DNA of 41,521 nucleotides from an uncultured Chryseobacterium sp. GTDB taxonomy: Bacteria; Bacteroidota; Bacteroidia; Flavobacteriales; Weeksellaceae. The notes under the pieces were generated by a model that was not told the DNA's origin, ran no database searches, and was given only the letters and a program-made list of their open reading frames with translations. Of this stretch, positions 11,106 to 37,668 are shown in pieces (position 1 is the first letter of the stretch; each line of letters begins with the position of its first letter). The translations under genes and the position numbers were made by a program. Location of the stretch: the NCBI GenBank assembly GCA_913778085.1, contig CAJYXJ010000066.1, positions 1 to 41,521 of the forward strand. Reading direction: 5' to 3'.

Positions 11106-12779
11106 CTACGGTTTAACATGAGAAACACTGATTCCTGCGGCTTTTAATTCATCTAATAAAGGCTGACTTGCATTTCCTTCAATTCTCCACTCAATTTTCC
11201 AGCCGTCTTTTACCAATTGTTCATCTCTTTTGATTTCGTACATGATTTCTTCGGTTCTGGAGAAATAATTTCCGGATTTCACTTCAATTCCTTTCTGTTT
11301 TTTCACATCTGCAATATCCAGTCTTCTGTTAACCGTTGCTCCGTCCAGCTCTACCTCGACAGTAACTTCTCTTTTACCCCAACCCACACTTTCATGATAA
11401 GCATCTGCGGCTGCATTTCCTTTATTTGCGTTTTGAATGGCAACGTCGTATCTTTTGCTCCAGTCATCATAATTCAATTCTCCGCCTCTTGCCTGATAAT
11501 CTTCCCATCTTTGAGCCTTATGCTCCGGAGTTCCTGCTTCCGGCTTATACCCATTATGAACCAAAATCCCGTCTTCGGTAACATAATAATTTTCATTGGC
11601 CTCGATATCAAAATTATAAACTTTTTCGTAATGCGGCAAAGTTTCGACGCTTATTACGGTGGTATAATCTCCTCCTTTTAAATGTAACAAATCTCCGGGT
11701 TGCAGATCTTTTGCCTCAATCCATTCATCATTACAGAAAAAACGGTGCTCCGGAGTTACTCTAACAAATTCGCCTGTAGGCAATTCGATGGTGAGCATCT
11801 GCAGCGTATACCTCTCGTGTTTTTTAAGAATAGGTTTAAACTCCCGGGATTTAGTCTGTTCATTATATGTAAGCACCAGATCTCCTTCAAAAAGATCTTC
11901 AATAGGGGCTACACCATTTTGAGTATGTACTTTTGTGCCAGCTGGAAAACACACCAGACTTGCCCCTTTTGCGGCAAAGACACTTAAAATTAATGCGACG
12001 CTGCTTTCTTTTAATTTATCTAAAGTATCCTGATCGCTGCTCCAAATACTGTACTGCTCATAATAAGCTCCTCCAATTCCCAATCCTCTCATAATCTTAC
12101 AGAAGGTTGGTGCTTTCATAAAGCCTTTGAAAGTAAATTGCTCAACAAGCTCCTTCCTTGCCGTATTGGCAAACTGTCTTCCGAATTCTCTCCCAAAAGT
12201 TGCTGCTCCCTGTCGTGTGGCCAGTGTAGATACTCCTCCTGCAGCAGAAGTGGCTCCCATCGTCATCGCTCCCAAACCTCTTCCTGCCAAAAACCCAAAA
12301 GCAAAATTGGCAACATGCCCGAGATTCGTTAAGGCTGCACTTCCCCACGCTTCCCAAACCGTTTCTTTCGGAGTAATGGTTCCGCCTTCTACCGGGCACA
12401 TCATAATTGAGGATAAAGTGAGCGCTTTTTTTCCGTGAATTTCTAATACAGGAGATTGTTTTGTCCAGATTCTTTGGGTAGCGGCAGATTTACATTTAAT
12501 ATATCCAACGGCAACGGCTGCTATAATGACGGCTGCAATAAGCACAGCAACGAGCCAGCCCGGCCCCGGAATACAGCAGCAGATTCCCGCAGCTGCACCC
12601 GCAATGAAAGCAACATTGCCAAGACACAAAAAATTATTATCTTTTAATGTATCTTTTTCAGTAGCAGCCAAATGGCCGCTCATGTAGGTGGTTTTCTGAC
12701 TCGTAACCTTCATTTGTTTAGGAGCCGTTCCCTTACTACAGACCAGATAATGTTTCTCGGTGAGATACTGTTCTTCCAT
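11106..12779 (-). CDS. T6SS effector: PAAR-like + HINT + C-terminal nuclease toxin
   Basis: A 557-residue polymorphic toxin. Residues 1-137 form a PAAR-like (DUF4280-type) cap that would sit on the VgrG1 tip (YLVCSKGT, MCPVEGGTI) and are interrupted by a hydrophobic insert at about 54-95 (two helices). Residues 140-272 are Gly/Ala-rich linker and membrane-active-looking sequence. A HINT (Hedgehog/intein) autoprocessing domain runs from Cys277 (CFPAGTKVHTQNG) to ILVHN at Asn409, so the toxin could cut itself free. The end (about 415-557) has R-R-L-D488 ... IEVKSG (E499, K501), a D-x(n)-ExK arrangement of PD-(D/E)XK nucleases, suggesting a DNase. It follows an adaptor-like gene by four bases and precedes the putative immunity gene. 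Nuclease fold is inferred from motifs. Confidence 0.8.
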   Translation of the reverse strand: MEEQYLTEKHYLVCSKGTAPKQMKVTSQKTTYMSGHLAATEKDTLKDNNFLCLGNVAFIAGAAAGICCCIPGPGWLVAVLIAAVIIAAVAVGYIKCKSAATQRIWTKQSPVLEIHGKKALTLSSIMMCPVEGGTITPKETVWEAWGSAALTNLGHVANFAFGFLAGRGLGAMTMGATSAAGGVSTLATRQGAATFGREFGRQFANTARKELVEQFTFKGFMKAPTFCKIMRGLGIGGAYYEQYSIWSSDQDTLDKLKESSVALILSVFAAKGASLVCFPAGTKVHTQNGVAPIEDLFEGDLVLTYNEQTKSREFKPILKKHERYTLQMLTIELPTGEFVRVTPEHRFFCNDEWIEAKDLQPGDLLHLKGGDYTTVISVETLPHYEKVYNFDIEANENYYVTEDGILVHNGYKPEAGTPEHKAQRWEDYQARGGELNYDDWSKRYDVAIQNANKGNAAADAYHESVGWGKREVTVEVELDGATVNRRLDIADVKKQKGIEVKSGNYFSRTEEIMYEIKRDEQLVKDGWKIEWRIEGNASQPLLDELKAAGISVSHVKP

Positions 12780-16003: not shown

Positions 16004-16417
16004 TTAGTTGCTACTTCCTCCAGGCCAAAGACCCTGGTAATTGGAATTTCCGTAGTCGATGCTCTCTGCACTTACTACAAAGCTGATCAGCATGCTGTTT
16101 TCGTCCACAGCATCAAAATCCACTTCGTGCTGGATCACATATCCGTTGTGCCACGTCAAAGTAATCAGGGTTCCTTCTTCGTGGGATTTATTGAATGTAA
16201 TTTCACCGGTCGTCGGCTTGTATTTTCCGTTCAGTAAGCTTTCCAGAATGTCGGATTTCTCCGTAGCTTCTACCGTAAGCTTAATCAATGCATTGGAAGG
16301 ATCTGAAGCGACCCTGCCGGAAACGTCCGTCGATCTTGATACGCTGTAATTCAGCTTTAATAATTTCTGACCTTCTCCACCGTTGAATTTTAAGATTCCT
16401 CTTGAATTTGCTGCCAT
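16004..16417 (-). CDS. tssD: T6SS tube protein Hcp/TssD, copy 1
   Basis: The 137-residue protein is a Bacteroidetes-type Hcp (TssD), the ring subunit of the expelled inner tube: beta-rich, starting MAANSRGILKFNGGEGQKLL and containing the Hcp-like segments KLNYSVSRSTDVSGR, LIKLTVEAT and GYVIQHEVDFDAVDENSMLISFVVSAE. Its first 72 residues are identical to Hcp2 (25133-25537); differences cluster in the C-terminal third (WHNGY versus WENGY, YQGLWPGGSSN versus YEGLWPSA). Transcribed from its own regulated promoter (16469-16561) with a leader of about 45 bases, and followed by a strong terminator. It is the head of the vgrG1 cargo block. Confidence 0.95.
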   Translation of the reverse strand: MAANSRGILKFNGGEGQKLLKLNYSVSRSTDVSGRVASDPSNALIKLTVEATEKSDILESLLNGKYKPTTGEITFNKSHEEGTLITLTWHNGYVIQHEVDFDAVDENSMLISFVVSAESIDYGNSNYQGLWPGGSSN

Positions 16418-16468: not shown

Positions 16469-16561
16469 CAAAGATAGACCACTTAATTTTAACCTGAAAG
16501 TATTTAAAGTATAAATTCATGTTTTGTAGTAGTTCTACGATTTCATGTCGTAATTCTACGA
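16469..16561 (-). promoter_or_regulatory. hcp1 promoter with upstream tandem inverted-repeat operator
   Basis: Minus strand: a perfect -7 box TATCTTTG at 16476-16469, 52 bases ahead of the hcp1 ATG, with no TTG at 17-23 bases upstream. Exactly 50 bases further upstream is an operator of two 14-bp units at a 21-bp period: 16548-16561 reads TCGTAATTCTACGA (inverted repeat TCGTA-N4-TACGA), and 16527-16540 TAGTAGTTCTACGA matches at 12 of 14 positions. The same operator stands at the same distance in front of hcp2. A missing -33 element plus a duplicated upstream operator suggests activator-dependent transcription. The rest of this gap (16562-16796) is AT-rich and otherwise holds only the terminator at 16721-16752. 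Confidence 0.75.
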
Positions 16562-16720
16562 TACTGGAAATAATGTTAACATTAAAAATTTAAAAATCAA
16601 CTATTTGACAGTATAATTCAACCTTATTGAATATCTACTTTTTACACATATAAGAGAAATATTAAGACTAATTTAAGAAATTTTTAAGCATTGTTAACGT
16701 ATGTAAAATTAAAATCGGAT

Positions 16721-16752
16721 AAAAAAATTCCGGAAAGATGAACTTTTCGGAA
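16721..16752 (-). terminator. Terminator of the clpV-vgrG2 operon
   Basis: On the minus strand, arms at 16752-16743 (TTCCGAAAAG) and 16737-16728 (CTTTCCGGAA) pair with one mismatch around a five-base loop and are followed by seven T's. It closes the operon after the decayed lipoprotein gene. Confidence 0.8.
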
Positions 16753-16796
16753 CCGTATTTATAATGATGTTAATTAATTGTTTTAATATTTAAAAT

Positions 16797-17154
16797 TTAT
16801 TTCATTTTCTTCAGAAAGATCGTATCAGGTTTTCTGTTGAGAAATCTGGATTTCATTTTTTCCCATGCTGTGTCCAGACCGTAACGGCTGTATCTATTTT
16901 GTAGCCACCCAAACTGAAGATCAGATCGGCAACGGATTCTTTTTTGTTTTCCATTTTAAAATAGCCTTTTTTATCCGTATATCCTGAAATAAAGCCTGAA
17001 CGGAGATTTTTTTTTACCATTACCCGGCTCAACGGTTTTTTTTATCCTGATCGAATACATAACCATGATAAAAATTCTGCTGCGAGCATTGTATGGAAAA
17101 TAAAATTAAAAATAGGTGTAATCGTTTCATCTGATTCTGATTTTCGTTAGCCAT
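16797..17154 (-). pseudogene. Frameshifted paralogue of the lipoprotein at 17573-17965
   Basis: Reading frames strung together give a lipoprotein start (MKRLHLFLILFSIQC at 17130, lipobox SIQC), GYVFDQDKK, then in a second frame PLSRVMVKKNLRSG, YTDKKGYFKMENKKE and GGYKIDTAVTV, and in a third RFLNRKPDTIFLKKMK before TAA. The second frame matches the intact paralogue (G.V....K.L..V.V, then NGYF and DGYKI). Both breaks fall in A-runs (A8 at about 17036-17043 and A6 at about 16856-16861) and one added A at each would restore a single frame. That means either recent decay or homopolymer length errors in the assembly. It directly follows the protease remnant, as the intact lipoprotein follows the intact protease. 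Confidence 0.75.
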
Positions 17155-17155
17155 A

Positions 17156-17494
17156 TTAAACTAAGGACATCCCGTTCCGCAGCAACCATCCTGTTTCTTG
17201 GTTATATGGCATCCAATCGGTATAATAAGGCATAATATCAATTTCTCCGCTTGCCGGATAGGGGGTTGCCTTATCGTTTTCATTCTGGGTATACGGATTT
17301 ACGCTTCCCTTATGGCCATAGGAATAGATTGTACCTTCACAAGCCTCTAAAATCGTATGTCCTATTTCATGGGCTGCCGTTTCCTTAAACTCGATATCCT
17401 CCTGGCTTTCGATTCTATACCCCCATTTTTGGCTTTTTATATAGCCCACATTGTAACAGACCGCTTCTCGTGATACTAAGTTTCCAATCCATGG
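17156..17494 (-). pseudogene. C-terminal remnant of a second metalloprotease effector
   Basis: The open frame (start only by a GTG at 17449, open back to a stop at 17495-17497) encodes ETAAHEIGHTILEACEGT, with the HExxH zinc motif, then YPASGEIDIMPYY. It parallels the end of the intact effector at 17962-19440 (SAHEIGHEILLTYGG ... IPTNGEIDLMKYY). The N-terminal T6SS region and most of the protein are missing. A shifted frame just upstream (ATG near 17551) reads TMDWKLSITRSG, possibly a further frameshifted piece corresponding to NWELSRILYF. An orphan C-terminal cassette like this, with its decayed lipoprotein partner behind it, is typical of effector turnover. Confidence 0.7.
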
Positions 17495-17572
17495 TTACTA
17501 GAGATCTGGTAAGAAATAGTATTGATGGTAATACTTTTTTTCTTTCCATGATTAATTTAATACATCCTCATG

Positions 17573-17965
17573 TTAAAATGCATCCAGTCGGATAATACCT
17601 AATTTAATAGTATCAGAATTATTAAATTTCGACAGATCATATTTTTTTATTTTATACCCATCCTTTCTGAAAAAAATAAACTGATTTAACTTATGGATTT
17701 TTCTTTTTGACTCCTGCGAATCTTCTATCTCAATTTTAGGAAAAATAAAGTATCCATTGCTTCTGCTGGTAATATTTCTTGGACTGAGAATATCTGAAGA
17801 ATCATAGTAAACCTGAACATTTGCCAATGTCTTATTCTCTGAATTTTTTACGATACCAACAACCGGTTTTCGATAAACTATATTTTTTGAACAAGAATAA
17901 TTTGTTATATTAAGAAATACAGTACCTATTATGAGCAAGAAATATGCTTTAAAACTTGTTATCAT
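17573..17965 (-). CDS. Lipoprotein coupled to the metalloprotease effector, candidate immunity protein
   Basis: From the ATG at 17965 the product is 130 residues: MITSFKAYFLLIIGTVFLNI then a Cys in the NYSC lipobox-like site, so it is probably lipidated and faces the periplasm. The mature part resembles a carboxypeptidase-regulatory-like beta-sandwich (VVGIVKNSENKTLANVQVYY ... SNGYFIFP ... KDGYKI), a fold common in Bacteroidetes surface and periplasmic proteins. The start is set by an ATGA overlap with the effector stop (TGA 17964-17962), a classical sign of translational coupling; a longer frame to 17989 exists but would bury the signal peptide. Immunity against the protease is inferred from coupling, location and the duplicated pair. 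Confidence 0.7.
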   Translation of the reverse strand: MITSFKAYFLLIIGTVFLNITNYSCSKNIVYRKPVVGIVKNSENKTLANVQVYYDSSDILSPRNITSRSNGYFIFPKIEIEDSQESKRKIHKLNQFIFFRKDGYKIKKYDLSKFNNSDTIKLGIIRLDAF

Positions 17966-19440
17966 TTTACCTTTATTTTCGTTAACCAAATCACTTTTAG
18001 TAAATCAAACTCAGAAATTATTGTTCTAGGAATATCATAATAATTCTGATAATATTTCATCAAATCTATTTCGCCATTCGTTGGTATGGCAGGAGAGGTA
18101 TCTAAGGTTTTTTGAGATAATATTGTTGATGAATTTTTATGACTTTTAGAGTATTCTTGACCACCGTAAGTTAATAATATTTCATGCCCTATTTCATGAG
18201 CTGATACCATTTTATAATCATCGATATCAGCATCTACATATTCCCAGCCTTTATTATTATAGAGAATGGAATTAGGATATTTCTTCCATGAGCTTCTGTA
18301 TAAATAGCCTTCATAAAAATATAAAATACGGGAAAGCTCCCAATTTCTTGATCTTCCTTCTTCACAATTTGTCTGATAAATAATCTTTGGTGCGGCCAAA
18401 CCATTTTCATCAGTTCTAGAATTTACAAATACTTCATAGAGTTCAGAAACAATATTAATTCCTTTCCCTATATTTTGTGAATTTCTTGACCAAAATTGAT
18501 TAATTCCCTGAAGTGTAATTTCTAATAACTGATGATATTCTTTTTGTCTTTTCCTGATAGGTGGTCTTTTGTAAAATACCAGTGCTTCCTTTGAAATCTT
18601 ATCCCAGGGGCAACTTTCCACCCACCGGGTTTCATCTCGTGCACCGGCAAGATGGGATGAACATTCCAATCCTTCCGCTCCCCCGTCTTTCAGGTTAACC
18701 CGAAGCGTGGTATCAATCCTTTTATTTGTTTTATCGATTTTTACATCTACCCAGTCGACTTTAGCATATTGGGTCGTAAATTCCACTTCTTTCGTTTTAC
18801 GGACGCCGTTTTTAGTAGCCGTGATCACGGCTTTCAGTTTTTTATTATTGAAAAGCGAACTGTCATAAATCCCATTGTTATCAAAACCATCCCAGAAAAT
18901 AACATACGAACCGATCTTCGTATAGTCTGAAGAGGAGATGTTGTAAGGGTCGAATACGCTTTTCCAATCCCATACTTTCACAGGATCTGCAGGCCGGTGT
19001 TCCGGCTTGTTCTTCATCAGGTCTTCACCCAGCAAAGGCAAGCGCCTGGCCGTGACCACAATTTCAGGAAGATTGGTGATGGCATACAGCGTACTCCCGT
19101 CTTCATTCAGCACCTTAAACTCCAGGGAATCGATATTGCTGAGCATCAACGAATAATTAAAGACAAAATTCGCATTTTCATAATTTCCTTCGAAATCCAG
19201 TATGCCGAACGGTACTACCGTTGAATAGCCTCTGTCTTTTTTTAAAGAAAAAGAAATTTCAAAATCTTCATTCACAGTGCTTCCCTTCCTCTGGAAATTT
19301 CCGTAATAGACACCGTCACCGGTTCCGTTTTCCCGGACCTGGTTCCCCGCTCCGGATATAATTTTACCTTCCGACGACATATTGTGATCGCCGCCGCTTA
19401 TTTTATAATAATTTCCCTGTACAATTCTGGTCCTGGACAT
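17962..19440 (-). CDS. T6SS zinc-metalloprotease effector
   Basis: About 492 residues from the ATG at 19440, two bases beyond the VgrG2 TAG stop (TAGCATG). The N-terminal region (about 1-110: MSRTRIVQGNYYKISGGDHN, SSEGKI, NGTGDGVYYGNF) is a Gly-rich beta domain that I have seen at the start of Chryseobacterium T6SS cargo proteins and probably docks on the spike; the middle (about 110-270) is beta-rich (EIVVTARRLP, then FWDGFDNNGIYD). The C-terminal part holds AHEIGHEIL (His415, Glu416, His419), the HExxH motif of zincin metallopeptidases. It should cleave proteins in target cells, probably in the periplasm since its coupled partner is a lipoprotein. No signal peptide, as expected for T6SS cargo. 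Substrate unknown. Confidence 0.75.
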   Translation of the reverse strand: MSRTRIVQGNYYKISGGDHNMSSEGKIISGAGNQVRENGTGDGVYYGNFQRKGSTVNEDFEISFSLKKDRGYSTVVPFGILDFEGNYENANFVFNYSLMLSNIDSLEFKVLNEDGSTLYAITNLPEIVVTARRLPLLGEDLMKNKPEHRPADPVKVWDWKSVFDPYNISSSDYTKIGSYVIFWDGFDNNGIYDSSLFNNKKLKAVITATKNGVRKTKEVEFTTQYAKVDWVDVKIDKTNKRIDTTLRVNLKDGGAEGLECSSHLAGARDETRWVESCPWDKISKEALVFYKRPPIRKRQKEYHQLLEITLQGINQFWSRNSQNIGKGINIVSELYEVFVNSRTDENGLAAPKIIYQTNCEEGRSRNWELSRILYFYEGYLYRSSWKKYPNSILYNNKGWEYVDADIDDYKMVSAHEIGHEILLTYGGQEYSKSHKNSSTILSQKTLDTSPAIPTNGEIDLMKYYQNYYDIPRTIISEFDLLKVIWLTKIKVK

Positions 19441-19441
19441 G

Positions 19442-21376
19442 CTAGTAGTTTTTACTTTTTTCACCGCTGTTGTTCTGAACCTGTTCCTGGGCGTTTTTAT
19501 TAATATATTTTCCGGAAGTCAGGTTCATATCTTCATGGGAAATTTCATTCCGTTCCTTCAGGGTTTCACTGTGTACATCACCCTCGATCATTTCGGTAAG
19601 CTTCCCTGTTATAAACATGCTTGCATCTCCCGCAACGGAAGTCATTTTCATGGCACCTACACTCTGGAGATGATTCATTACAACCGTATCCGCTTTATTC
19701 ATCCCTACATTGGTATTCATATTTTCCGCAACATTAATGTTCATGTTCTTACAATTAAGCGTCATGGTTTCCGGAGCGGTAATGGTAATATTTCTTCCGG
19801 TGGTATCCAGATGAATTTCGTTGCCCGATTTATCGGTAATAATAATGCTTTCGTCCTCTGTAAATACTACCCGGTGACCACTTCTGGTCTGGATGGATTT
19901 CACCCTGTTGTCCATACCGCCGCCAAGACCAATGCCTCCATGAAACATCCCTCCCATTACAAAAGGTCTGTCGGGATGGCTGTGTACAAAATTCACCATA
20001 ACTTGGTCCCCGACTTCCGGAATCGCTACATACCCTCTGTTCTGGGTAATCTGGTCGGTTCCTCCCGCATCCGGGCTCATCATCCGGATGAAATGCGTCG
20101 TATCGCTGGTCTGCCAATCGAACCGCACCTGTACCCTTCCCTGCCCTTCCGGATCGGCATTGGAAATGACCGTGGCAATCTGCGGTTCCGCTTTCGGTAC
20201 TTTAAATTCCGGTTTCGGCATAAATCCGGTATCCGAAGCAATTCCCTCGAAACTTCCGGTATAATGCCCGATGGTATCGATCTCATGGGAAGCTTCGGTA
20301 ATCATGATCCTTGTAAAATAATCCGACTCATTGCTGTCTACTTTCCGCATCTGGACATCCACGACGCAGCCGGGATGTAAGAACGGAACAGTGGTATTCC
20401 CGGATAAGGAAAATACATTTACGGCTTCGCTTCCTGCCGTACTTCTCTGAGAATATTCTATGTCAAGATGGGTGGACGCTTTAATCGGGGCCACCTGCAG
20501 GGCCGGAGTTCTGTATATTTTTTCATTGTGAGCATAGGCTGTTTTTGCAAGATCGCTCACATGCTTAATCGGTGTTTCACCTGAAGTCAGTTTTTCATGT
20601 TTACTACTGTTGTATCCGTAAAACTGAGGTTTCGTGTGAACCGCCTTTAATTCGACCCTGATGTCATTGGCACTGCTTCCGTAGGTTAATTTAATAGGTT
20701 TATTCTGAGGCGGCAGCTTCCCGAAATGGAGGACTTCGCCATCGTAATAAAACTGTTCGCCATACGCTTCAGCCATTCTCGCCAGGTAGTTGTAGTGCGT
20801 TTCGTCGTACTGGCTGCTGTAAATGATCTGGGAATAATCGTTGGTATCTACCCTGATGTCGAAGCGGCTGGAATCGATCCCCTGTTTGATTACTTCATTG
20901 GCAATAATTCCCATATTGACCGGAGAAGCGCCGCCGAAACTCTGGATATGAGGTGCCCCGTCAAGCAAAATGGTAGGGCTATAGCCTGTAAGCACAATAT
21001 TGCCGAGACTCATTTTTTCCTGGCTGAATCCTACGCCGGTAATGACGCCTACAAATGTTCTTTCAGGACTGTTATCGATGTCTTTATATGAAACAACAGC
21101 GGTAAGGCGTTTCCCCAAAAATTTATTGGCCTCTTCCAGGGTATGGGTCTGCCGTTCGCCCAATGCATCGTGGGCCAGCGTTACACTGAATTCATGATGG
21201 CGTCTTGCGCTTTGGGTGAGTTTAAAATGCTTATAATATTTGATAACTTTTCCTTCAATAACCAGAGAAAGTTTCACCAGTCTGTTGATTCCCGTATGAT
21301 AATTCTGGGAAATTCCATCGGCGTTCTGTGACGGACGGAAAGGGTTTTTCAATATATCTTGTGATTCTGTTTTCAT
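19442..21376 (-). CDS. tssI: T6SS spike protein VgrG2
   Basis: A 644-residue VgrG, paralogous to VgrG1. After only about 29 residues the gp27-like core begins (INRLVKLSLVIEGKVIKYYKHF); further landmarks are VGVITGVGFSQEKMSLGN, YDETHYNYLARMAEAYGEQF, the OB fold GQGRVQVRFDW and YVAIPEVGDQVMVNFVHSHP, and a C-terminal beta-helix (VVFTEDESIIITDKSGNEIH onward) that ends in a polar, Asn/Glu-rich tail instead of the VNIGG end of VgrG1. It lies 37 bases after the lytic transglycosylase gene and immediately ahead of the metalloprotease effector, its likely cargo. The differing C-terminal tail could explain selective effector loading. Confidence 0.95.
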   Translation of the reverse strand: MKTESQDILKNPFRPSQNADGISQNYHTGINRLVKLSLVIEGKVIKYYKHFKLTQSARRHHEFSVTLAHDALGERQTHTLEEANKFLGKRLTAVVSYKDIDNSPERTFVGVITGVGFSQEKMSLGNIVLTGYSPTILLDGAPHIQSFGGASPVNMGIIANEVIKQGIDSSRFDIRVDTNDYSQIIYSSQYDETHYNYLARMAEAYGEQFYYDGEVLHFGKLPPQNKPIKLTYGSSANDIRVELKAVHTKPQFYGYNSSKHEKLTSGETPIKHVSDLAKTAYAHNEKIYRTPALQVAPIKASTHLDIEYSQRSTAGSEAVNVFSLSGNTTVPFLHPGCVVDVQMRKVDSNESDYFTRIMITEASHEIDTIGHYTGSFEGIASDTGFMPKPEFKVPKAEPQIATVISNADPEGQGRVQVRFDWQTSDTTHFIRMMSPDAGGTDQITQNRGYVAIPEVGDQVMVNFVHSHPDRPFVMGGMFHGGIGLGGGMDNRVKSIQTRSGHRVVFTEDESIIITDKSGNEIHLDTTGRNITITAPETMTLNCKNMNINVAENMNTNVGMNKADTVVMNHLQSVGAMKMTSVAGDASMFITGKLTEMIEGDVHSETLKERNEISHEDMNLTSGKYINKNAQEQVQNNSGEKSKNY

Positions 21377-21413
21377 AATAACGGTGATTTGAATAGGTTA
21401 AACATGATTTTGG

Positions 21414-22301
21414 CTATTCCCTGAGGGCTGGTATATTTGATTCTTTAACGGATCGGGAAAGAATTTTAGTCTTTCGCAGTAAAAAATCGGGCATCAGATC
21501 GGTAGGAAGATATAAGGTTCCCTGCCCTTTCTGTTTGAGTTCGTCATTGATCCCGGGATTCCAGGACAGAAGTTTTTCCACATCTACGTCAAGCTCATCC
21601 GCAATCACATCCAGATTAAAACCTGCGTTGATATCGGTTTCTGCCAGCTGAGAACGGTCTTGTTTACTTCCGCCGTTCACAAAAAATACGGTATTCATTC
21701 TCGAAGAGTTGTAATTGCTCAGCACCGCCTGAAGTTCGCCGGTGGCGTAGCAGGCATTCAGGTATTTCTTAACGTGGTTGATGGTTTCTTCCGGCAGATA
21801 TTTATAAAAAACATGGTATTGCGAAGAATTGGCCGCAGCCATAGCCTTAGCGATGTTTCCTTCACCACAGTTGTAAGCAGCAACTACCGTTACCCAATTG
21901 TTGTATTTTTTATAAAGGTTGGATAAGGAAACGGCAGCTGTTTTAGTGCTTTTATAAAGGTCATTCCGGTTTTGTTCCGTAAGGCCATACTGGTTGGCGT
22001 GGGCGGTCATAAACTGCCAGACCCCAACTGCCCCGGCTCCGGAAGTAATATTCCTGTTAAAATGGGATTCGATGAGGGCCAGGTTCCTAAGATGTCTCGG
22101 CAGGCCCTTCTGTACCAGGGAATATTCAATAAAATCTACAATTTCCTTATTGGCGCTGATGATGCCTTTATACCTCCGTACACTGCCTTCCGAAGTATCG
22201 GAAGCGGTAAGGAACTGGGCGCTCACCATCTGTGAAGCCATCAGAAGCATTGCCATTAGTACGATATGTTTGAGATTCGGGTTCATTGTACGAGGTTGCA
22301 T
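21414..22301 (-). CDS. Lytic transglycosylase of the T6SS cluster
   Basis: The 295-residue protein has a signal peptide (MNPNLKHIVLMAMLLMASQM... with cleavage after VSA; the ATG at 22286 may be the true start). The SLT-type catalytic domain spans about residues 45-190: catalytic Glu78 in LALIESHFN, then GAVGVWQFM and AAYNCGEGNIAKA, the canonical lytic transglycosylase motifs. Residues about 220-275 form a LysM-like domain (FNLDVIADELDVDVEKLLSWNPGI). It cleaves peptidoglycan glycan strands to 1,6-anhydromuropeptides in the periplasm; placed between clpV and vgrG2, it probably opens the wall locally for assembly of the secretion channel rather than acting as an effector. Confidence 0.88.
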   Translation of the reverse strand: MQPRTMNPNLKHIVLMAMLLMASQMVSAQFLTASDTSEGSVRRYKGIISANKEIVDFIEYSLVQKGLPRHLRNLALIESHFNRNITSGAGAVGVWQFMTAHANQYGLTEQNRNDLYKSTKTAAVSLSNLYKKYNNWVTVVAAYNCGEGNIAKAMAAANSSQYHVFYKYLPEETINHVKKYLNACYATGELQAVLSNYNSSRMNTVFFVNGGSKQDRSQLAETDINAGFNLDVIADELDVDVEKLLSWNPGINDELKQKGQGTLYLPTDLMPDFLLRKTKILSRSVKESNIPALRE

Positions 22302-22371
22302 TAATTGTATTTAACCGGAAAAAGCGAAAAAATTCACGACATGTTCAGGTTATTTATATCGTAAAAAATCT

Positions 22372-24867
22372 TTATTCGACTTTCCAGCTCAGTTTTTCTT
22401 CTTCGGAATTCCAATCTGCGTGGATGGCCTGTCCAGGTTTCACTTCTTCCCGGACAATCATTTTTGAGATCGGTCTTGCCAGCTGCGACCGGATGACACC
22501 GGAAATCTGCCGTGCCCCGTATTTGCTGCTGAATCCGTCTAACGCAAGTTTATTAACCGCCTTATCACTGACTGTAAGGCTCATTCCAAGCCTGGTTAAA
22601 GATGCATACAATGATTTTAGCTGGATATTAAAAATCCTTTCTGCAATAGATTCGGTAATCGGCGCAAACGGAATGATCTCCGTGATCCTCGCCAGGAATT
22701 CCGGCCGGAAACGACCTGAATTCGACATGATCTGCATTAATGAATTTGATTCCGGGATTTTCCCTTCTTCAAACTGTTTGACGATCTCTTCGCTTCCGAT
22801 GTTTGAGGTAAACAGGATCAGCGCGTTACTGAAATCCCCTTCTTTTCCAAGCTTGTCATGAACTTTTCCTTCGTCCATGATCTGTAAAAAGACATCAAAT
22901 ACCGAGTGATGCGCTTTTTCAATTTCGTCAAACAGAACCACGGTATAAGGCTGCTGCCTGATTTTATTGACCAACATTCCTCCCTCTTCGTATCCTACGT
23001 ATCCGGGAGGCGCACCATATAAAAGTGCCGCGGAATGTTCTTCCTTAAATTCCGACATATCGAAACGGACCATTGCTTTTTCATCGTTGAAGAGAAGTTC
23101 CGCCATGGATTTGGCCAATTCGGTTTTCCCTGTCCCGGTAGGTCCCAGAAGAAAGAACGACCCTATTGGCTGTCCTGGTTTATTCAGTCCGCTGCGGTTT
23201 TCAACAATCGCATCAGAAAGGATTTTCAAAGCATGATCCTGTCCAACGACCCTGTTCATTAAAAGCGATTCCATGTTCAGGAGCTTTTCTTTTTCCTGTG
23301 CCTGGATTTTTCCTATCGGGATGTTGGTTTTGGCCGCCATTACAGCTGCCAGTTCCAGACGGTCCACCTTTTCCCTTTTTACGGAAGCGTGCTGTACAAG
23401 TTCTGCATAGGTATCTTCAATGGTTTTCTGAATCTGCTCAACCGGCATGGAATTGTCGATCTTCGGCTGTTCGCTTAAAGATCCCCACAAAATCGGACTG
23501 ATCTTGTCCCTCAGCAAATTATACATCCAGATCAGTTCATCGGCTTTATCTTTTTCATCGTGGAATTCCTCTTTCAGAATTTCATCATATTTCGTTTTCC
23601 AGCTTTCCAGTTCCTTTTCGGAAAGTTCGTCAAGCATTTTGATGGCGGCCATAGTCCGGTCCAGCAGGTCTATGGCAGCATCGGGAAGCTTTTTTCCTTT
23701 GGCATATCTTTTTGCCAGCCGCACACATTCCGGAAGAGCTGTTTTTTCCACTTCGATGCCATGATGCTTTTTATAGCCGTCCAGAAGAACATCAATCATT
23801 TTCACGCAGGTTTTTTCATCCGGCTCATGTACGGTGAGGACTTCAAAACGCCGGTTGAATGCCTGCTCCGGTTCGATGATTTTCCTGTATTCCTCCTGGG
23901 TGGTGGCTCCGATAACGGTAATTTCGCCACGTGCCAGCTCAGGTTTTAACAGATTCGCTACATTTCCGATACTTCCCTTCGGATCCAGCAGGGTGTGGAT
24001 TTCATCAATAAAGAGAATGGCTTTTTCGATTTTCTTGCATTCGTTGATTACTTTTTTCAGGCGGTCTTCAATTTCGCCTTTATAAGAAGTTCCGGCCAGC
24101 AAAGCTCCCGTATCCAGCTCCAGCAAGGTCCCGTTTTTAAGCATATCAGGAACATTCCCTTTTGTAATTTCTATGGCAAAGCCTTCTACCAGGGCAGTTT
24201 TTCCAACACCAGGCTCCCCGATGATAATCACATTCGGTTTGCTTCTTCTGCATAAGATTTCAACAAGCATTCTCAGCTCTTTATCCCTTCCGATCATGTT
24301 TTCGATCTCACCTTTTCTGGCTTGAGCTGTCCGATCTACGCAATAGCTTTTAATTGAAGGAAAAGAATTGTCAGAATATTCGGAGCCACTGGAGAAGACA
24401 GAAGAGAATCCTTCGTTTCCGGAATTTTCATAGGGGGCATCTTTTCTGTATAAATTAAAGATTTCATGTTCCCTGAGCGGCAAGGATTTCAGTTGTTGCA
24501 GCGTAAAGGCAACCTGCGGTTTTACAATAGCAGTCAGAATGCAGACCGGGGTAATTTCATCCAGTCCCAGTTTCAGCCGGATATCATCCGCCTCTTCTAC
24601 AATATGATCCACGGAATCGTCTTCTTTTACCTCATCAGGAAGATGGGTAGTCTTCGGCCAGTCTTCTATCCGCACGTCTGCCCATTCATAAAAATATCCG
24701 GGATCTTTGTCAATGCTTTTCAGGAATTCAGTAAGGCCTATATCTCTGTGCATTAATGCCTGAAGAAGGTGTGGTGCGCCGTAAGTTGCGTTATAATTCT
24801 CCTTCGCAATCGACTGTGCAATATGAAAAAGCTGTTTTACCGTCTCGTTGGTTACAAGTACTCCCAT
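22372..24867 (-). CDS. tssH: T6SS sheath-recycling ATPase ClpV/TssH
   Basis: An 831-residue Clp/Hsp100 AAA+ protein. It has an N-terminal double Clp repeat (about 1-145: AQSIAKENYNATYGAPHLLQALMH), a first AAA module with Walker A GEPGVGKTA (about 217-225) and Walker B ILFIDEIHTL (about 285-294), a middle coiled region (about 400-480), and a second AAA module with Walker A GPTGTGKTE (about 574) and Walker B VVLFDEIEKAH plus the C-terminal D2-small domain. In T6SS this hexamer disassembles the contracted TssB/C sheath. Absence of a general ClpB context, and position after hcp2 and before the transglycosylase and vgrG2, supports TssH rather than ClpB. No own TAnnTTTG box was seen in the 200 bases upstream; it may rely on read-through past the hcp2 terminator. 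Confidence 0.93.
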   Translation of the reverse strand: MGVLVTNETVKQLFHIAQSIAKENYNATYGAPHLLQALMHRDIGLTEFLKSIDKDPGYFYEWADVRIEDWPKTTHLPDEVKEDDSVDHIVEEADDIRLKLGLDEITPVCILTAIVKPQVAFTLQQLKSLPLREHEIFNLYRKDAPYENSGNEGFSSVFSSGSEYSDNSFPSIKSYCVDRTAQARKGEIENMIGRDKELRMLVEILCRRSKPNVIIIGEPGVGKTALVEGFAIEITKGNVPDMLKNGTLLELDTGALLAGTSYKGEIEDRLKKVINECKKIEKAILFIDEIHTLLDPKGSIGNVANLLKPELARGEITVIGATTQEEYRKIIEPEQAFNRRFEVLTVHEPDEKTCVKMIDVLLDGYKKHHGIEVEKTALPECVRLAKRYAKGKKLPDAAIDLLDRTMAAIKMLDELSEKELESWKTKYDEILKEEFHDEKDKADELIWMYNLLRDKISPILWGSLSEQPKIDNSMPVEQIQKTIEDTYAELVQHASVKREKVDRLELAAVMAAKTNIPIGKIQAQEKEKLLNMESLLMNRVVGQDHALKILSDAIVENRSGLNKPGQPIGSFFLLGPTGTGKTELAKSMAELLFNDEKAMVRFDMSEFKEEHSAALLYGAPPGYVGYEEGGMLVNKIRQQPYTVVLFDEIEKAHHSVFDVFLQIMDEGKVHDKLGKEGDFSNALILFTSNIGSEEIVKQFEEGKIPESNSLMQIMSNSGRFRPEFLARITEIIPFAPITESIAERIFNIQLKSLYASLTRLGMSLTVSDKAVNKLALDGFSSKYGARQISGVIRSQLARPISKMIVREEVKPGQAIHADWNSEEEKLSWKVE

Positions 24868-25066
24868 GGTGTTATTTTCTCAATTAATATTCTGTGTGTG
24901 GTGTGTTCATCGGCTGGTTTCCGCTGAAATATAGCAAAACCCAGCCCATAAACGACTGAATTTTACTGCTTACTAAGATATTGATTTTTTTTTAAAATAG
25001 ATATATATATCCCGTGAATATGACATACCGCAATTATCCGGCGCATCCTATTTTTATTCACAAGGT

Positions 25067-25099
25067 AAAAAAGACCGTCTAGTGAAGACAGTCTTTTTT
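25067..25099 (-). terminator. Terminator after hcp2
   Basis: Arms 25067-25080 (AAAAAAGACCGTCT) and 25086-25099 pair with one internal mismatch around AGTGA; the minus strand reads into a T run. It lies 34 bases past the hcp2 stop and ahead of clpV, mirroring the terminator behind hcp1. Confidence 0.8.
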
Positions 25100-25132
25100 A
25101 TGAATGTTATGTTGCCTTTTGTACCATCCGGT

Positions 25133-25537
25133 TTATGCTGATGGCCAAAGACCTTCATAAGCGGAGTTGCCATAATTAATGGTTTCTGCGCTTACTACAA
25201 AGCTGATCAGCATGCTGTTGTCATCCACCGCATCGAATTCCACCTCGTGCTGGATTACGTAGCCGTTTTCCCATGTAAGGGTAATCAGTGTTCCTTCTTC
25301 GTGGGATTTGTTAAACGTAACTTCGCCCTTGGTCGGCTTGTATTTTCCGTTGAGTAAGCTTTCCAGGATGTCTGACTTTTCAGTAGCTTCTACGGTAAGC
25401 TTGATGAGTGCGTTTGAAGGATCCGAGGCCACTCTACCGGAAACGTCGGTAGATCTTGATACGCTGTAGTTCAGCTTTAATAATTTTTGGCCTTCGCCAC
25501 CGTTGAATTTTAAGATTCCTCTTGAATTTGCTGCCAT
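25133..25537 (-). CDS. tssD: T6SS tube protein Hcp/TssD, copy 2
   Basis: The 134-residue Hcp is a near-identical paralogue of Hcp1: the first 72 residues are the same, and changes are concentrated near the C-terminus (KGEVTFNK, WENGYVIQHEVEFDAV, YEGLWPSA). It forms the hexameric rings of the inner tube. It heads the clpV-transglycosylase-vgrG2 block, has the same promoter architecture as hcp1 (25591-25683) and its own terminator. Two nearly identical tube genes with parallel control suggest a gene-dose arrangement or an ancestral duplication of an hcp-vgrG-cargo unit. Confidence 0.95.
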   Translation of the reverse strand: MAANSRGILKFNGGEGQKLLKLNYSVSRSTDVSGRVASDPSNALIKLTVEATEKSDILESLLNGKYKPTKGEVTFNKSHEEGTLITLTWENGYVIQHEVEFDAVDDNSMLISFVVSAETINYGNSAYEGLWPSA

Positions 25538-25590
25538 GATCTGTAAATTTTAAATCGTTAATAATATTTTGTGATTCGGTGATTGTGATA

Positions 25591-25683
25591 CAAAGATAAA
25601 ACGGCAATTATTTTTTTTAAAATTTTTAAATCCTAATTTTAATTTTTGTCGTAATTCTACGATTTGATGTCGTAATTCTACGA
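25591..25683 (-). promoter_or_regulatory. hcp2 promoter with tandem inverted-repeat operator
   Basis: Minus strand -7 box TATCTTTG at 25598-25591, 54 bases ahead of the hcp2 ATG; no TTG at the -33 distance. The operator has two identical 14-bp units TCGTAATTCTACGA at 25649-25662 and 25670-25683 (period 21 bp, two helical turns), beginning exactly 50 bases upstream of the -7 box as at hcp1. The spacer between operator and -7 box has diverged to unrelated AT-rich sequence in the two copies while operator, -7 box and leader are kept, which argues for function. Confidence 0.8.
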
Positions 25684-33168: not shown

Positions 33169-35568
33169 TTAATGCCCTGTATATTCCGGTTCTTCCACCT
33201 GCATCATGGTCGGCATAAAGTATTCGTTCAGCCAATAGAAGGTTTGTCCGTTCTGTTGGATCTTCACTGCCGGATCGTTCCGGTGAGACAGCATACGATC
33301 TGCCAGGATTTTATAATGTCGGAAATAGTTCCTTACGGTCTCATTCGTTACGATTTTGGATTTTTTCCATCCTTTCAGCATGTACTTAGACATGAGCTCT
33401 TCTTCGGAATTGTCGAAGCCTGTGCTTACACCCACTGCGTAAGACATCGGCTGCTTGTACAATTCTCCTTTATCCAGGAACTGAACGGTAGGATTGTATT
33501 TCTTCAAAAGTTTTATATATTCATTGATCGCTCTGGATTGCTTAAAGTCTGATCTTTCCGCACCGGTGTTCTGGTAAACTTCGGTATAGAACTGCTTCAG
33601 ATTATCAAATTCCTTTTCGGAGATCAGCACGCCTTTTTCGAGACCGGGTTTGAAATCCTTCAGCTCTTTCGGAATATAGCCTTTCACGAGAAACGGATTC
33701 CCGTAATTGATCAGCTGTGCAGCGATTCCTGCCGGCACCGGATTCGTAAGCCCGGGATACAGGTATTTATATTTCACATCTACATCCGTTCTTCCTGCTC
33801 CTACCGACGAATGGAAATAATCGTTCAGAGATTGATCGAGAGTCGTATTGTCCAGCGTAACCTGCGCAATCAGGCTGTCCACGGATTTCTTAAGGTAACC
33901 CGGCGTGGTGATATCGCCTTTTTTAGGGAAGATCACGAATCCCTGGGCCATGCTTTGTTTAGGGTAATCCAATGAAAAGAAACCTTCGTCGCCTTCCACC
34001 AGGCTGAAATTATTTTTCGTTAAAACATCGTTCTGGTTAATGATCTTCTGCTTTTTAAGTTCAGCAATATTTTTAGCGGTGTTCGTTACCACATTTTCAG
34101 ACATCAGCACGAAATCATTATACGTATCGGAGGATCTCGCACTCGTCTGAAACATGATCAGCCTAGCCTGGGCCTGAGTCAGGGAATTGATCACCCCATA
34201 CATATTCCCGCTCTGGTTGGCGGATGTCCCCACGGTGATGACGATATTGGTTTCGTCCGGCACAGCGGACAGGAGATTCCCCGCTGCCATCAGTCCTTCA
34301 CCGACCGGCTGATAGCCACTGTTGCTTACACAGTTCATTTCATTGCTTTTCTGATCGATGAACGTGGTGATTTTACTATAATCGGCATTCAATCCAGAAA
34401 CGGCTACATTATCTCCGCAGGAGTTGTTTTTATACAGTACTACGCCATATTTTACCTGATTGAAATAGGAAGGCTTTTCAAACCTTAGCTGCAGATCCTG
34501 TAACAATGATTTTACAATCGGTGCGTACGGAGCATTCGGAGCACTGATGTCCAGGGTAAAAACGATGTTGATTTTTTTATTTTTCTCCGTAATCTCACGG
34601 TACCGGTCGAAATAGATTGGTTCTCCCAGTACATTGAACACATAATTTTTGCTGTAATCCAGGATATTCGTAAAATATTTGGTCTTTGAATCCGGTGTCG
34701 GCGGTTCATGCAGCGGTAAGGTTACAGGGAAGATATTTTCCAGCGGCGTTCTTTTGTTTACATCGGTAAGCAGGACGGCCGCTTTGTCATCCGCCCCGTT
34801 CTTGCCAGGTGCTCCCTCATGAATTCCCAAACTCGTTTCGGTAATACCGGTGGTATTTTTCATCTTCACGGCAGAACGTTCTCCCCAGGCCGAAATAACA
34901 TTGGAGCTTACCCAGCCGTAAAGACCGGTGCTGATGCTATCCATATCCACGGAAGGCTTCTTGCCCACCAGGAATCTTTTGTTGTTTTCCGCCTGCTTGT
35001 AGACGTAGACGATCTGTCCGTTGGGGATTTTCACATTGGCCTGTTCAATCAGGCTCGGCGAATTAAACACCATGATCGAATCGTTTTTATAATATCTTTC
35101 GGAATTGCGGATCACTTCACTGTTACTCGGCACTACGGCTACTCTTACCGGAAAGCCTGTTTTTTCGCTTTTCAAGGAGTTACTCCATAGCAGCAGATCG
35201 GATTCCGGAATCCAGCCATAGGTTTTGATTTGTTTGGGAGAAACTTTCTTCATCAGGGCGTCCGGGATATATTCGGCAACCTTTACCATACCGTCCCTGC
35301 TTTTCAGGACCATCAGCGGTTCCAGGAATTTTACTTCCTTGTACGATTTTTCGTCATTTTTATCCAGGTAAGCCGTATTCCTGGAACGGTCTGAAATAGC
35401 GATCCACGGCACTGATTTTTTTGGAAAGCCATTGATGACAGGAGCGTTGTCTACCTGACCGTAATGTGACGGCTCAGGTGTTTTTTTCGACGGCAGCTTT
35501 ACCTGGCAACTTACCAATAAAACCGAAATCCCTACATAATATGCTGCTAGAGGAAATTTATTTTTCAT
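33169..35568 (-). CDS. tssR: T6SS-iii lipoprotein TssR
   Basis: TssR is a component specific to the Bacteroidetes T6SS-iii, thought to belong to its envelope-spanning complex. The 799-residue product starts with a lipoprotein signal (AAYYVGISVLLVSC, Cys21). About 45-260 contains SH3-like beta segments (VPWIAISDRSRNTAYL ... KTYGWIPESDLLLW and GLYGWVSSNVISAW). About 325-520 looks like a von Willebrand A-type domain (INIVFTLDISAPNAPYAPIV, VKYGVVLY, TNIVITVGTSANQSGNMYG); the MIDAS-like DxS is kept as DIS. A long helical end follows to PTMMQVEEPEYTGH. It is the last gene of the tssO-tssO-tssP-tssR operon, 49 bases after tssP, and is followed by a strong terminator. Confidence 0.85.
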   Translation of the reverse strand: MKNKFPLAAYYVGISVLLVSCQVKLPSKKTPEPSHYGQVDNAPVINGFPKKSVPWIAISDRSRNTAYLDKNDEKSYKEVKFLEPLMVLKSRDGMVKVAEYIPDALMKKVSPKQIKTYGWIPESDLLLWSNSLKSEKTGFPVRVAVVPSNSEVIRNSERYYKNDSIMVFNSPSLIEQANVKIPNGQIVYVYKQAENNKRFLVGKKPSVDMDSISTGLYGWVSSNVISAWGERSAVKMKNTTGITETSLGIHEGAPGKNGADDKAAVLLTDVNKRTPLENIFPVTLPLHEPPTPDSKTKYFTNILDYSKNYVFNVLGEPIYFDRYREITEKNKKINIVFTLDISAPNAPYAPIVKSLLQDLQLRFEKPSYFNQVKYGVVLYKNNSCGDNVAVSGLNADYSKITTFIDQKSNEMNCVSNSGYQPVGEGLMAAGNLLSAVPDETNIVITVGTSANQSGNMYGVINSLTQAQARLIMFQTSARSSDTYNDFVLMSENVVTNTAKNIAELKKQKIINQNDVLTKNNFSLVEGDEGFFSLDYPKQSMAQGFVIFPKKGDITTPGYLKKSVDSLIAQVTLDNTTLDQSLNDYFHSSVGAGRTDVDVKYKYLYPGLTNPVPAGIAAQLINYGNPFLVKGYIPKELKDFKPGLEKGVLISEKEFDNLKQFYTEVYQNTGAERSDFKQSRAINEYIKLLKKYNPTVQFLDKGELYKQPMSYAVGVSTGFDNSEEELMSKYMLKGWKKSKIVTNETVRNYFRHYKILADRMLSHRNDPAVKIQQNGQTFYWLNEYFMPTMMQVEEPEYTGH

Positions 35569-35617
35569 CTTGATTTATTTAAATGATTGGTGTGCCCCGA
35601 AAAGCCCGGGACGGAAA

Positions 35618-36526
35618 TTATTTACTTTGGTTAATATCGACTTTCGTTACGCAGTTTTGTGCATCATCGAAGTTCACTTTTACAGTCTGGATCACATTGT
35701 TTTTATCAAACTGCAAGCCTGCACAATACATGTAGAAGTTGTTTACCTTGCTGTCGTTTACCTTTACTACAGTATTTTCATTGTTGCACAGATAGGTTCT
35801 CAACAGATAGTTGTAATGCATGTTGAAACTGTTTCCATTGGCAATCTGCTGAAGGTGATATTTAAAATCATTATCGATTTTCGCATAGGCATCTTCCACA
35901 CTTACTTCTTCCTGTAAGGCATCGTATGCCGGAAGGATTTTGATCTGGTGTAAAATAGGCTCGGCACTTTCGTCGGTGTAAAGCGTCACCACATAATCTC
36001 CCGGCTTTTTGTAGGAATAGATAGCCATTTTGTCTTTGGAATCAATGTTTCCGGTTTCTCCGAATTTCCAGGTAAACTGTTTGGCATCCGAAATGGCCCT
36101 GAACTGTACGTTCTCAAATTGCATGGCCTGAGTCTGCGCATCGATTACCGTTCGTATTTTGGTGGAATCTGCCGGCTTTGGAATGGTTCTCGCGGAAACC
36201 ATAACCGGGAAAGATTTGGAATATTTGTTATCGATGATCAGAGTAACCTGGTAGTATCCCGGCCTGTTGTAGAAATGGATCCCGCTGCTTTTATCGGTTG
36301 ATGTGCCGTCCCCGAAGTTCCACCGCTTGGTTTTCGCAAACTGGGTTTTATCCTCGAAAAGCAGGGTATCGCCCACTTTGAGGGTAGACGGATACACGAC
36401 TCCTACAATATCATCCGCCGAGTGTATCACTTTCTTCTGCAGCCAGAGGGCTACGAGTGCTGCGATGAGCAGCGTCGCAATAACACCGATAATAATGTTC
36501 TTCTTGTTTTTCTGAAAGTAATTCAT
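35618..36526 (-). CDS. tssP: T6SS-iii membrane protein TssP (PKD domains)
   Basis: The 302-residue protein has one N-terminal transmembrane helix (IIIGVIATLLIAALVALWL) and a periplasmic part with two PKD-type beta-sandwiches: the first about 45-105 (TLLFEDKTQF ... RWNFGDGTSTDKSSGIHFYNRPGYYQVTL), the second about 130-195 (VQFRAISDAKQFTWKFGETG ... SYKKPGDYVVTLYT). PKD-containing single-pass proteins are characteristic of TssP in T6SS-iii, where it is thought to help make up the trans-envelope complex in place of the TssJLM complex of other T6SS. The C-terminal 100 residues are unassigned, with two Cys (AQNCVTKVDI, YMYCAGLQF). It lies between a TssO-type gene and tssR. Confidence 0.8.
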   Translation of the reverse strand: MNYFQKNKKNIIIGVIATLLIAALVALWLQKKVIHSADDIVGVVYPSTLKVGDTLLFEDKTQFAKTKRWNFGDGTSTDKSSGIHFYNRPGYYQVTLIIDNKYSKSFPVMVSARTIPKPADSTKIRTVIDAQTQAMQFENVQFRAISDAKQFTWKFGETGNIDSKDKMAIYSYKKPGDYVVTLYTDESAEPILHQIKILPAYDALQEEVSVEDAYAKIDNDFKYHLQQIANGNSFNMHYNYLLRTYLCNNENTVVKVNDSKVNNFYMYCAGLQFDKNNVIQTVKVNFDDAQNCVTKVDINQSK

Positions 36527-36592
36527 AGTTCGTGATTGTGTGATGGGTGTTTTATTTTGTATGTGCAGTTTTCTCAGCAGTATGTTTCAGAT

Positions 36593-37120
36593 TTACTGGG
36601 TCCTTGCCTTGAGTGCGGTTTGACGCTGAAAAAGCTGGCTGGTCTTTTCCCTGAAGCCTATGGAACATTCTTCAAACTGTTTTTCAAAGTTTTTGATGTT
36701 TTCCGTTTTGCTGGAAATTACCTTTTTATCATTAAAATACATTTTATAGAATTTGGCAATCTGCGGATAAGCATCTTTCCGGATGTCCGTAATGTTCTCC
36801 CCGGTCTGGAAATAATTGGCTACATCATTGATCCCGTACATGATATTGCTTTCCTCAAAAGGCTGAGGTGCCTCATCCGTAAGGCGATTGATCATCGCAA
36901 AGGTGCTGTCCATGGTTTTGTAGGAAAACTTCTGCCTTTGGTCGAATCTGGCTTTTTCCTCGAGATTCCGTACGGAAACGATATCTTCATCCGAAAAAGG
37001 TGATTCAAACCCTTTCAGGAATATAATTCCCAAAAATAAGATGGCTGCGAAAAGCATGAGAATTAAATATAAAAACTGATAATGCCTTTCCTTTTTTGAT
37101 AGTGTGATTTGTCCCTGCAT
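36593..37120 (-). CDS. T6SS-iii single-pass protein, TssO/TssQ type
   Basis: The 175-residue product has a short basic cytoplasmic N-terminus, one transmembrane helix (FLYLILMLFAAILFLGIIFL, about 15-34) and a helical, charged periplasmic part (VRNLEEKARFDQRQKFSYKT ... KIAKFYKMYF-like segments ... SKTENIKNFEKQF). The combination fits the small membrane proteins TssO or TssQ of T6SS-iii, encoded beside tssP and tssR. I cannot decide which of the two names is right. It starts 11 bases after the neighbouring TssO-type gene and ends 66 bases before tssP, within one operon. Confidence 0.65.
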   Translation of the reverse strand: MQGQITLSKKERHYQFLYLILMLFAAILFLGIIFLKGFESPFSDEDIVSVRNLEEKARFDQRQKFSYKTMDSTFAMINRLTDEAPQPFEESNIMYGINDVANYFQTGENITDIRKDAYPQIAKFYKMYFNDKKVISSKTENIKNFEKQFEECSIGFREKTSQLFQRQTALKARTQ

Positions 37121-37131
37121 AATATTTAGCT

Positions 37132-37668
37132 TTATCTTCTGCGTCTGCTTCCTGAAAATTTTCTGGTGGGGTCTACCCTCAGCTCATGGTTGACGATGCC
37201 TACCTTACCCCTGCATTCGCTGAGGTCTCGTAAAGCATTCTGCTCTTTATATGATACCTTAACGATCTGGTTTTTAAGCGAGAGCATCGGGGCAATCTGC
37301 TTCATTAGAATGGAATAATGCCTGAAATTATCGGCACTGTCTTTCCCCATGATGTTTTTGGCATCCCGCACGTTATCGATGATGTAATTTCTGAGGAAGA
37401 TATCGTTGTCCACCTTATTGATGTCCAGCTGGTCCATCCGGTACAGGATGCTGTCGACATGGATTCTGAGGAGATCGCTCCTGGTAAGGAGCTCGCGGTA
37501 GTCGTCCGCCTGTTTTTTGATCCCTTCCCGCTGGATGTCATAGCTTTTGAAAAAGAAAAATACGCAGATGAAGGAAACACCTGACAGGACAATGAATGAC
37601 AGAACAAACTTCCAAATGCCTATCCTGACGTCCGACTTGTTTAATTTTTTCTCCCTATTCGAAGACAT
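37132..37668 (-). CDS. tssO: T6SS-iii single-pass protein TssO
   Basis: 178 residues with one transmembrane helix near the N-terminus (FVLSFIVLSGVSFICVFFFF, about 21-40) after a basic leader, followed by a long coiled-coil-prone periplasmic part (IQREGIKKQADDYRELLTRS, VDSILYRMDQLDINKVDNDI) and a very basic tail SGSRRRR. This is the layout of TssO, an inner-membrane component of T6SS-iii. It is first in the operon tssO, TssO/Q-type, tssP, tssR. A TAnnTTTG-type box TAATTTTG lies at 37726-37719, 51 bases upstream. The similarity to the next gene (same size, same topology) suggests an ancient duplication. Confidence 0.7.
   Translation of the reverse strand: MSSNREKKLNKSDVRIGIWKFVLSFIVLSGVSFICVFFFFKSYDIQREGIKKQADDYRELLTRSDLLRIHVDSILYRMDQLDINKVDNDIFLRNYIIDNVRDAKNIMGKDSADNFRHYSILMKQIAPMLSLKNQIVKVSYKEQNALRDLSECRGKVGIVNHELRVDPTRKFSGSRRRR

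Follow-up and report, generated by a model that had tools for sequence, protein, structure and literature searches.

The two hcp (tssD) genes in the window, the 41,521-nucleotide stretch of Chryseobacterium DNA analysed here, share a tandem palindromic box at a fixed distance upstream of the -7 box, and the palindrome recurs before hcp genes across the genus and in eight more genera. We propose, at a probability of about 0.7, that a dedicated activator of class-1 hcp genes uses the box as its operator, this activator most likely being the LuxR/NarL-type response regulator encoded at 38053-38724, with binding and activation predicted from sequence comparisons. The features concerned are listed here.

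25670..25683, minus strand: hcp2 distal box TCGTAGAATTACGA (hcp strand), computed centre about -90.5
25649..25662, minus strand: hcp2 proximal box TCGTAGAATTACGA, computed centre about -69.5
25591..25598, minus strand: hcp2 -7 box TATCTTTG, 50 bases from the proximal box (25599-25648)
25133..25537, minus strand: hcp2 (tssD, class 1), PF17642, 107.3 bits
16548..16561, minus strand: hcp1 distal box TCGTAGAATTACGA, direct sequence reading
16527..16540, minus strand: hcp1 proximal box TCGTAGAACTACTA, direct sequence reading
16469..16476, minus strand: hcp1 -7 box TATCTTTG, 50 bases from the proximal box (16477-16526)
16004..16417, minus strand: hcp1 (tssD, class 1), PF17642, 107.2 bits
38053..38724, plus strand: candidate regulator, LuxR/NarL-type response regulator with Glu61 (PF00196 and PF00072, co-occurrence, alignment, synteny)
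33169..37668, minus strand: tssO, tssO, a PKD-domain gene and tssR, the T6SSiii genes adjoining the regulator (Pfam, synteny)

Paired boxes at the two hcp promoters

Direct reading of the window bore out the core of the original prediction, that two TCGTA-N4-TACGA units, each itself palindromic, stand at a 21-bp period in both hcp promoters. Upstream of hcp2, TCGTAATTCTACGA occurs exactly at 25649-25662 and 25670-25683; upstream of hcp1, TAGTAGTTCTACGA (12/14) occupies 16527-16540 and an exact copy 16548-16561. The claimed distance of exactly 50 bases between operator and TATCTTTG also held at both loci, and a whole-window search returned no exact copy of TCGTAATTCTACGA beyond these three, again as predicted. 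A LytTR-type direct-repeat reading, prompted by the 21-bp period, was set aside: each unit is palindromic, and it stands singly in other genera. The T6SSiii cluster genes present in the window encode TssR (PF20782), TssO (PF17561) and TssD (PF17642), and the genome holds exactly two TssD matches, both of them the genes behind the paired boxes. Elsewhere in the window, 11106-12779 encodes a PAAR-like DUF4280 protein that also has a pretoxin HINT domain; after it, on the minus strand, come an open reading frame without a Pfam match (10645-11088) and an Imm51 immunity gene (10199-10549).

The signal resides in the pair and its position, not in single boxes. Allowing up to three mismatches, the paired box occurs in the 4.63-Mb genome only at the two hcp genes, with none for the reversed control. 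Single sites with up to two mismatches are at chance level in the window (11 found versus 12.15 expected), and the exact single core occurs at four places in the genome (the three in the window and a fourth on a different contig) versus seven for the reversed control pattern. The refined single box, at up to one mismatch, gave five genomic matches (four window sites and one other) versus 9 and 12 for the controls. Within the window, the box at this last threshold is found only at hcp; none precedes the regulator or the tssO-tssR genes, and a role as a T6SS-wide operator is not supported. Twenty fetched stretches contain 24 exact cores, placed by eye: 21 lie upstream of an hcp match, one is at an hcp relic (L357:9076) and two lie elsewhere (L357:8354 and L347:2750). 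Those two are not at a recognised hcp and count against the reading as an hcp operator. The box at L347:2750 (G219) is a second exact copy, some 150 bases farther upstream than the hcp box, and has no recognised hcp behind it.

Conservation of box and spacing

An oriented-pair scan of a GTDB contig collection returned at least 118 stretches, and all taxa among the 80 matches listed are Chryseobacterium or a Weeksellaceae MAG. These loci, at least 118, hold at least 134 pair matches (a triple box counting as two pairs), of which 127 are followed by an hcp start at no more than 300 bases, six are cut by the locus end and one (L156) retains box, -7 box and leader upstream of no open hcp frame. 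At L156 (near 3046, minus strand) and at L357:9076-9220, box, 50-base gap and -7 box precede apparently decayed hcp remnants; these look like promoters that have outlasted their genes.

Among 195 distinct class-1 hcp upstream regions of the genus, most of them from loci fetched with the box itself, two boxes at a gap of 50 were found in 164, one box in 13, three in 12 and other calls in six. For loci fetched independently of the box, through TssD, the regulator or TssR, the box was present in 37/37 class-1 upstream regions, each at a gap of 49-50, and in 0/18 of class 2, the classes being 89-100% and 29-35% identical to the query hcp. The pair also stands at a gap of 50 in all four further hcp upstream stretches of G040 and G048. 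Across genomes, the paired box occurs in 143/145 members of the genus with the regulator and in 0/5 without it, counts of species rather than of independent events. A 3-mismatch pair returned chance hits too in 99 relatives (reversed control 0 to 3 per genome); for the stricter oriented pair, the reversed control was 0 in all but three of 297 genomes. One pair match with two mismatches in a genome of another genus (G138) looks like chance.

Two further observations concern hcp promoters of other kinds. A different 14-bp palindrome, CTAAC-N4-GTTAG, abuts the single box at orphan hcp genes in 5 of 15 single-box promoters (L052, L054, L056, L057 and L068), possibly marking a second regulator. Class-2 hcp genes, which start ATGTCATTTAAA and often form tandem groups (L039-L050 except L045), have no box, and several of their upstream regions have in common a motif near ATATTCC, then TTTGG or TTGG.

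The distance from box to -7 box is nearly constant. Among at least 127 hcp-linked pairs the gap is 50 in 116 (111 to the -7 box and five to a near-match of it), 71 in seven, which equals 50 plus one 21-bp step, and 48, 49 or 51 in four. Mean information over the 111 promoters is 1.75 bits in the box, 0.71 in the mid-spacer and 1.84 in the -7 box, in agreement with the prediction that the spacer had diverged while operator and -7 box were kept; the 12 bases adjoining the box are also fairly conserved (1.36 bits). Promoters of Bacteroidota carry a -33/-7 pair instead of -35/-10. The original prediction had further remarked that both hcp promoters lack a -33 TTG, which is true and not special: a TTG at N17-23 occurs in 12/122 hcp promoters versus 14.6 expected from shuffled spacers, and in only 4/53 crude control promoters of the genus. 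We therefore rejected the missing -33 element as proof of activator dependence, since most control promoters likewise lack it.

Comparison with hcp upstream regions of relatives, beyond as well as within the genus, showed the same palindrome. We recovered 67 TssD matches in 25 genomes: two from the same genus (G281 and G029) and 23 from eight other genera. Five matches (one in G241, two in G235, two in G120) were unused owing to a short upstream region, a contig end or a fragmentary hcp, and 62 upstream regions were entered, with L394 and L399 duplicating regions already in the set; leaving out L397 and L305 for a missing start codon gave 60 usable regions from 22 other-genus and two same-genus genomes. 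TMGTA-N4-TACKA is exact in 57/60 versus 0.1 expected from mononucleotide shuffles; one of the others has a single mismatch and two, both from G222, have no box. In other genera many copies are longer and form the 18-bp palindrome TGTMGTA-N4-TACKACA. Tandem pairing is typical of one genus, and the palindrome is single in the other genera read.

Two spacings recur in this wider set. Promoters of g35, g56, g31 and g33, of G281 and of some g52 members leave 23 bases between box and -7-like sequence; those of g49, g53, g47 (with TAATTTAG as the -7-like sequence), the remaining g52 members and G029 leave 49 or 50. A second, looser -7-like match stands at a distance of 9 in one promoter (L390) and of 31 in another (G029). 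According to the text consulted on Flavobacterium psychrophilum, the TAnnTTTG -7 box occupies -12 to -5 (PMC9723704). Computed from this placement, with starts predicted rather than mapped, the box centre falls at -42.5 (gap 23) or -69.5 (gap about 50), and the second Chryseobacterium box at -90.5. The operator thus holds a fixed position upstream of the core promoter, at a gap of 23 or about 50, as in class II and class I promoters for these predicted starts. The two forms differ by about 27 bp, which is not a whole number of helical turns and counts against our preferred explanation.

A LuxR/NarL-type regulator beside tssO

Pfam scanning of 40 open reading frames in the window gave transcription-regulator or chromatin-protein hits only for a LuxR-type response regulator and an HU protein, and no histidine kinase. 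The response regulator carries a receiver at its N terminus (PF00072, E 1.6e-8, residues 13-112) and a GerE/LuxR helix-turn-helix at its C terminus (PF00196, E 4.8e-15, residues 158-212), the same architecture as NarL/FixJ proteins. Its nearest PDB sequence is EvgA (5f64, E 3e-11, aligned over residues 28-216); NarL (1a04) follows at E 2.8e-9. Alignment with EvgA places Glu61 at the phospho-acceptor Asp. Across 37 homologues this position is Asn in 20, Glu in 13, Ser in two and Asp in two, so that, unlike in NarL/FixJ proteins, the acceptor Asp is replaced in 35/37; Asp17, Ser89 and Lys111 are invariant. Because the acceptor is usually Glu or Asn, the regulator probably does not act through ordinary phosphorylation, and on this sequence evidence we regard its receiver as atypical and do not file the protein as a classical phospho-activated member. 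Mean conservation over the 37 homologues is 0.85 in the helix-turn-helix, 0.80 in the receiver and 0.68 in the linker, with R188, T189, D191, T192, Y193, R196 and L197 of the helix-turn-helix invariant.

The regulator differs from NarL/FixJ proteins also in being tied to T6SSiii, with no histidine kinase among the scanned reading frames. A homologue at E<=1e-40 occurs in 168 of 297 family genomes (145/150 of the same genus and 23/147 others), and TssR at E<=1e-70 occurs in the identical 168, with none discordant when the lists were compared by eye. Eight further genomes have only weak TssR (E 1.9e-8 to 2.1e-7) and no regulator, and four of the same genus (G177, G223, G274 and G302) have no regulator, no TssR and no TssD match. 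A close homologue (82-97% identity) is found in 58 of 60 same-genus genomes, our own included. G053 has neither a close regulator homologue nor a box, and all three of its TssD matches belong to the high-scoring class 2. Some genomes count against the regulator as reader of the box: G021 (90% complete, in about 360 contigs) combines box and hcp with no close regulator homologue, G222 has regulator and hcp and the box in 0/2 hcp upstream regions, and G029 and G281 have the regulator and a single box each in place of the pair.

The neighbourhood of the gene is also conserved. In all 16 fetched stretches holding both, the regulator adjoins tssO with no other window gene between; it is the first gene and co-directional with tssO in other genera and in G281. 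In the window, G029 and G271 it is divergent from tssO, and genes for HU and an RNase E/G come after it. The regulator tree, in which several deeper branches are weak, places G281 inside g35 (100/98) and splits g52. The promoter gap follows this tree with 3-4 changes versus 11-12 when shuffled, with the gap labels of 12 same-genus rows (besides G029 and G281) taken from the genus pattern in seven and from sequence in five. This agreement would also follow from linked inheritance of the entire cluster, and the regulator could co-occur with the T6SS for another reason, as anything specific to this system tracks hcp too. G281 (L353) belongs to the same genus by classification, yet has a regulator and an hcp promoter of the g35 type, suggesting whole-cluster transfer or a misplaced genome.

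Proposed mechanism, alternatives and significance

Taken with the co-occurrence, neighbourhood and protein type of the T6SS-linked regulator, which make it the most likely binder, these data are consistent with the following scheme. One dimer of a LuxR/NarL-type protein would occupy the operator core TMGTA-N4-TACKA. Most hcp promoters of Chryseobacterium have a second operator, and sometimes a third, each a further 21 bp, or two helical turns, upstream, and additional dimers would line up there along one face of the DNA. An activator bound at about -42.5 would act next to the sigma factor (class II), and one at about -69.5 through the alpha C-terminal domain of RNA polymerase (class I), with transcription predicted to start from the TAnnTTTG -7 box. 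The binder would be the orphan response regulator 38053-38724 beside tssO, found exactly where this type of T6SS is found, and it may be controlled by its abundance, its oligomeric state or some ligand or partner. The original prediction of an activator turning on T6SS tube genes thereby gains support, the pair being confined to hcp in the source genome and conserved before hcp in related species, with activation itself still a deduction; the activator, left unnamed there, now has a strong candidate whose binding is likewise predicted.

It is unlikely, though worth weighing, that the box is read as an hcp activator operator by some other protein encoded elsewhere and that the tssO-side regulator controls something else. 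The link between regulator and box consists of co-occurrence and neighbourhood, the box at up to one mismatch is absent before the regulator and tssO-tssR in the window, and the two are mismatched in G021 and G222; against this, the only other transcription-regulator or chromatin-protein hit among the 40 scanned reading frames is the HU protein, the regulator is present exactly with strong TssR across 297 genomes, its tree follows promoter type, and LuxR/NarL-type response regulators bind inverted repeats. We consider it improbable that the box is instead a repressor operator holding hcp off. Any palindrome can bind a repressor and tandem sites permit cooperative binding, but in the promoters read the box does not overlap the -7 box, from which about 50 or 23 bases separate it on the upstream side, and the gap keeps to 1-2 bases in a diverging spacer, the pattern expected of a protein that touches RNA polymerase. 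Given this fixed gap (23 or 49-50), an activator fits better than a repressor. That the likeness reflects only a recent, functionless duplication of the hcp promoter seems barely credible: hcp copies inside one genome are indeed paralogues with similar leaders, but the box is retained across nine genera despite spacer divergence, the gap falls into two narrow ranges, and class-2 hcp genes lack the box (0/18).

Our preferred reading, a dedicated class-1 hcp activator, resembles known systems in part. The GacA/UvrY box, TGTAAG-N6-CTTACA in the excerpt available (PMC3171408), and the extended hcp box are both 18-bp palindromes with outer TGT...ACA; the inner bases of the hcp box differ from those of that form, and we do not count it as a member. 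The GacA/UvrY box is read by a LuxR-type regulator. In Pseudomonas, GacS/GacA is described as controlling T6SSs positively, GacA promoting RsmY/Z, small RNAs whose targets are T6SS mRNAs (PMC10482370); in contrast to this route through RsmY/Z, the hcp box stands at the hcp promoters themselves. TssO and TssR, both encoded in the window, are reported as members of the membrane complex of the Bacteroidota T6SSiii, and this system as ubiquitous and multi-locus in Chryseobacterium (PMC10781749). The main text of that article is without the terms LuxR and response regulator, and the main text of a 2023 review of T6SS regulation (PMC10482370) is without Bacteroid, Flavobacter and T6SSiii. A literature search for the letters TCGTAGAATTAC returned no match, and one at the level of listings, outside the subscription literature, returned neither an hcp box nor a LuxR-type regulator for a Bacteroidota T6SS; the text consulted in PMC10781749 and PMC10482370 mentions neither. 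Transcriptional control of the Bacteroidota T6SS thus seems little described, and the candidate regulator for the hcp box is new here.

The box, its distance rules and one candidate gene together make a directly testable hcp circuit in nine genera, and the two natural operator distances offer a ready experiment on contact between activator and RNA polymerase at Bacteroidota promoters. More tentatively, a T6SS-encoded, phosphorylation-independent regulator might serve as a family-wide, dedicated controller of tube supply, activating only hcp, via a box functional at just two distances, and possibly responding to the apparatus state and not to a kinase signal from outside. If apparatus state is sensed, tube protein would be made upon building or firing of the machine.
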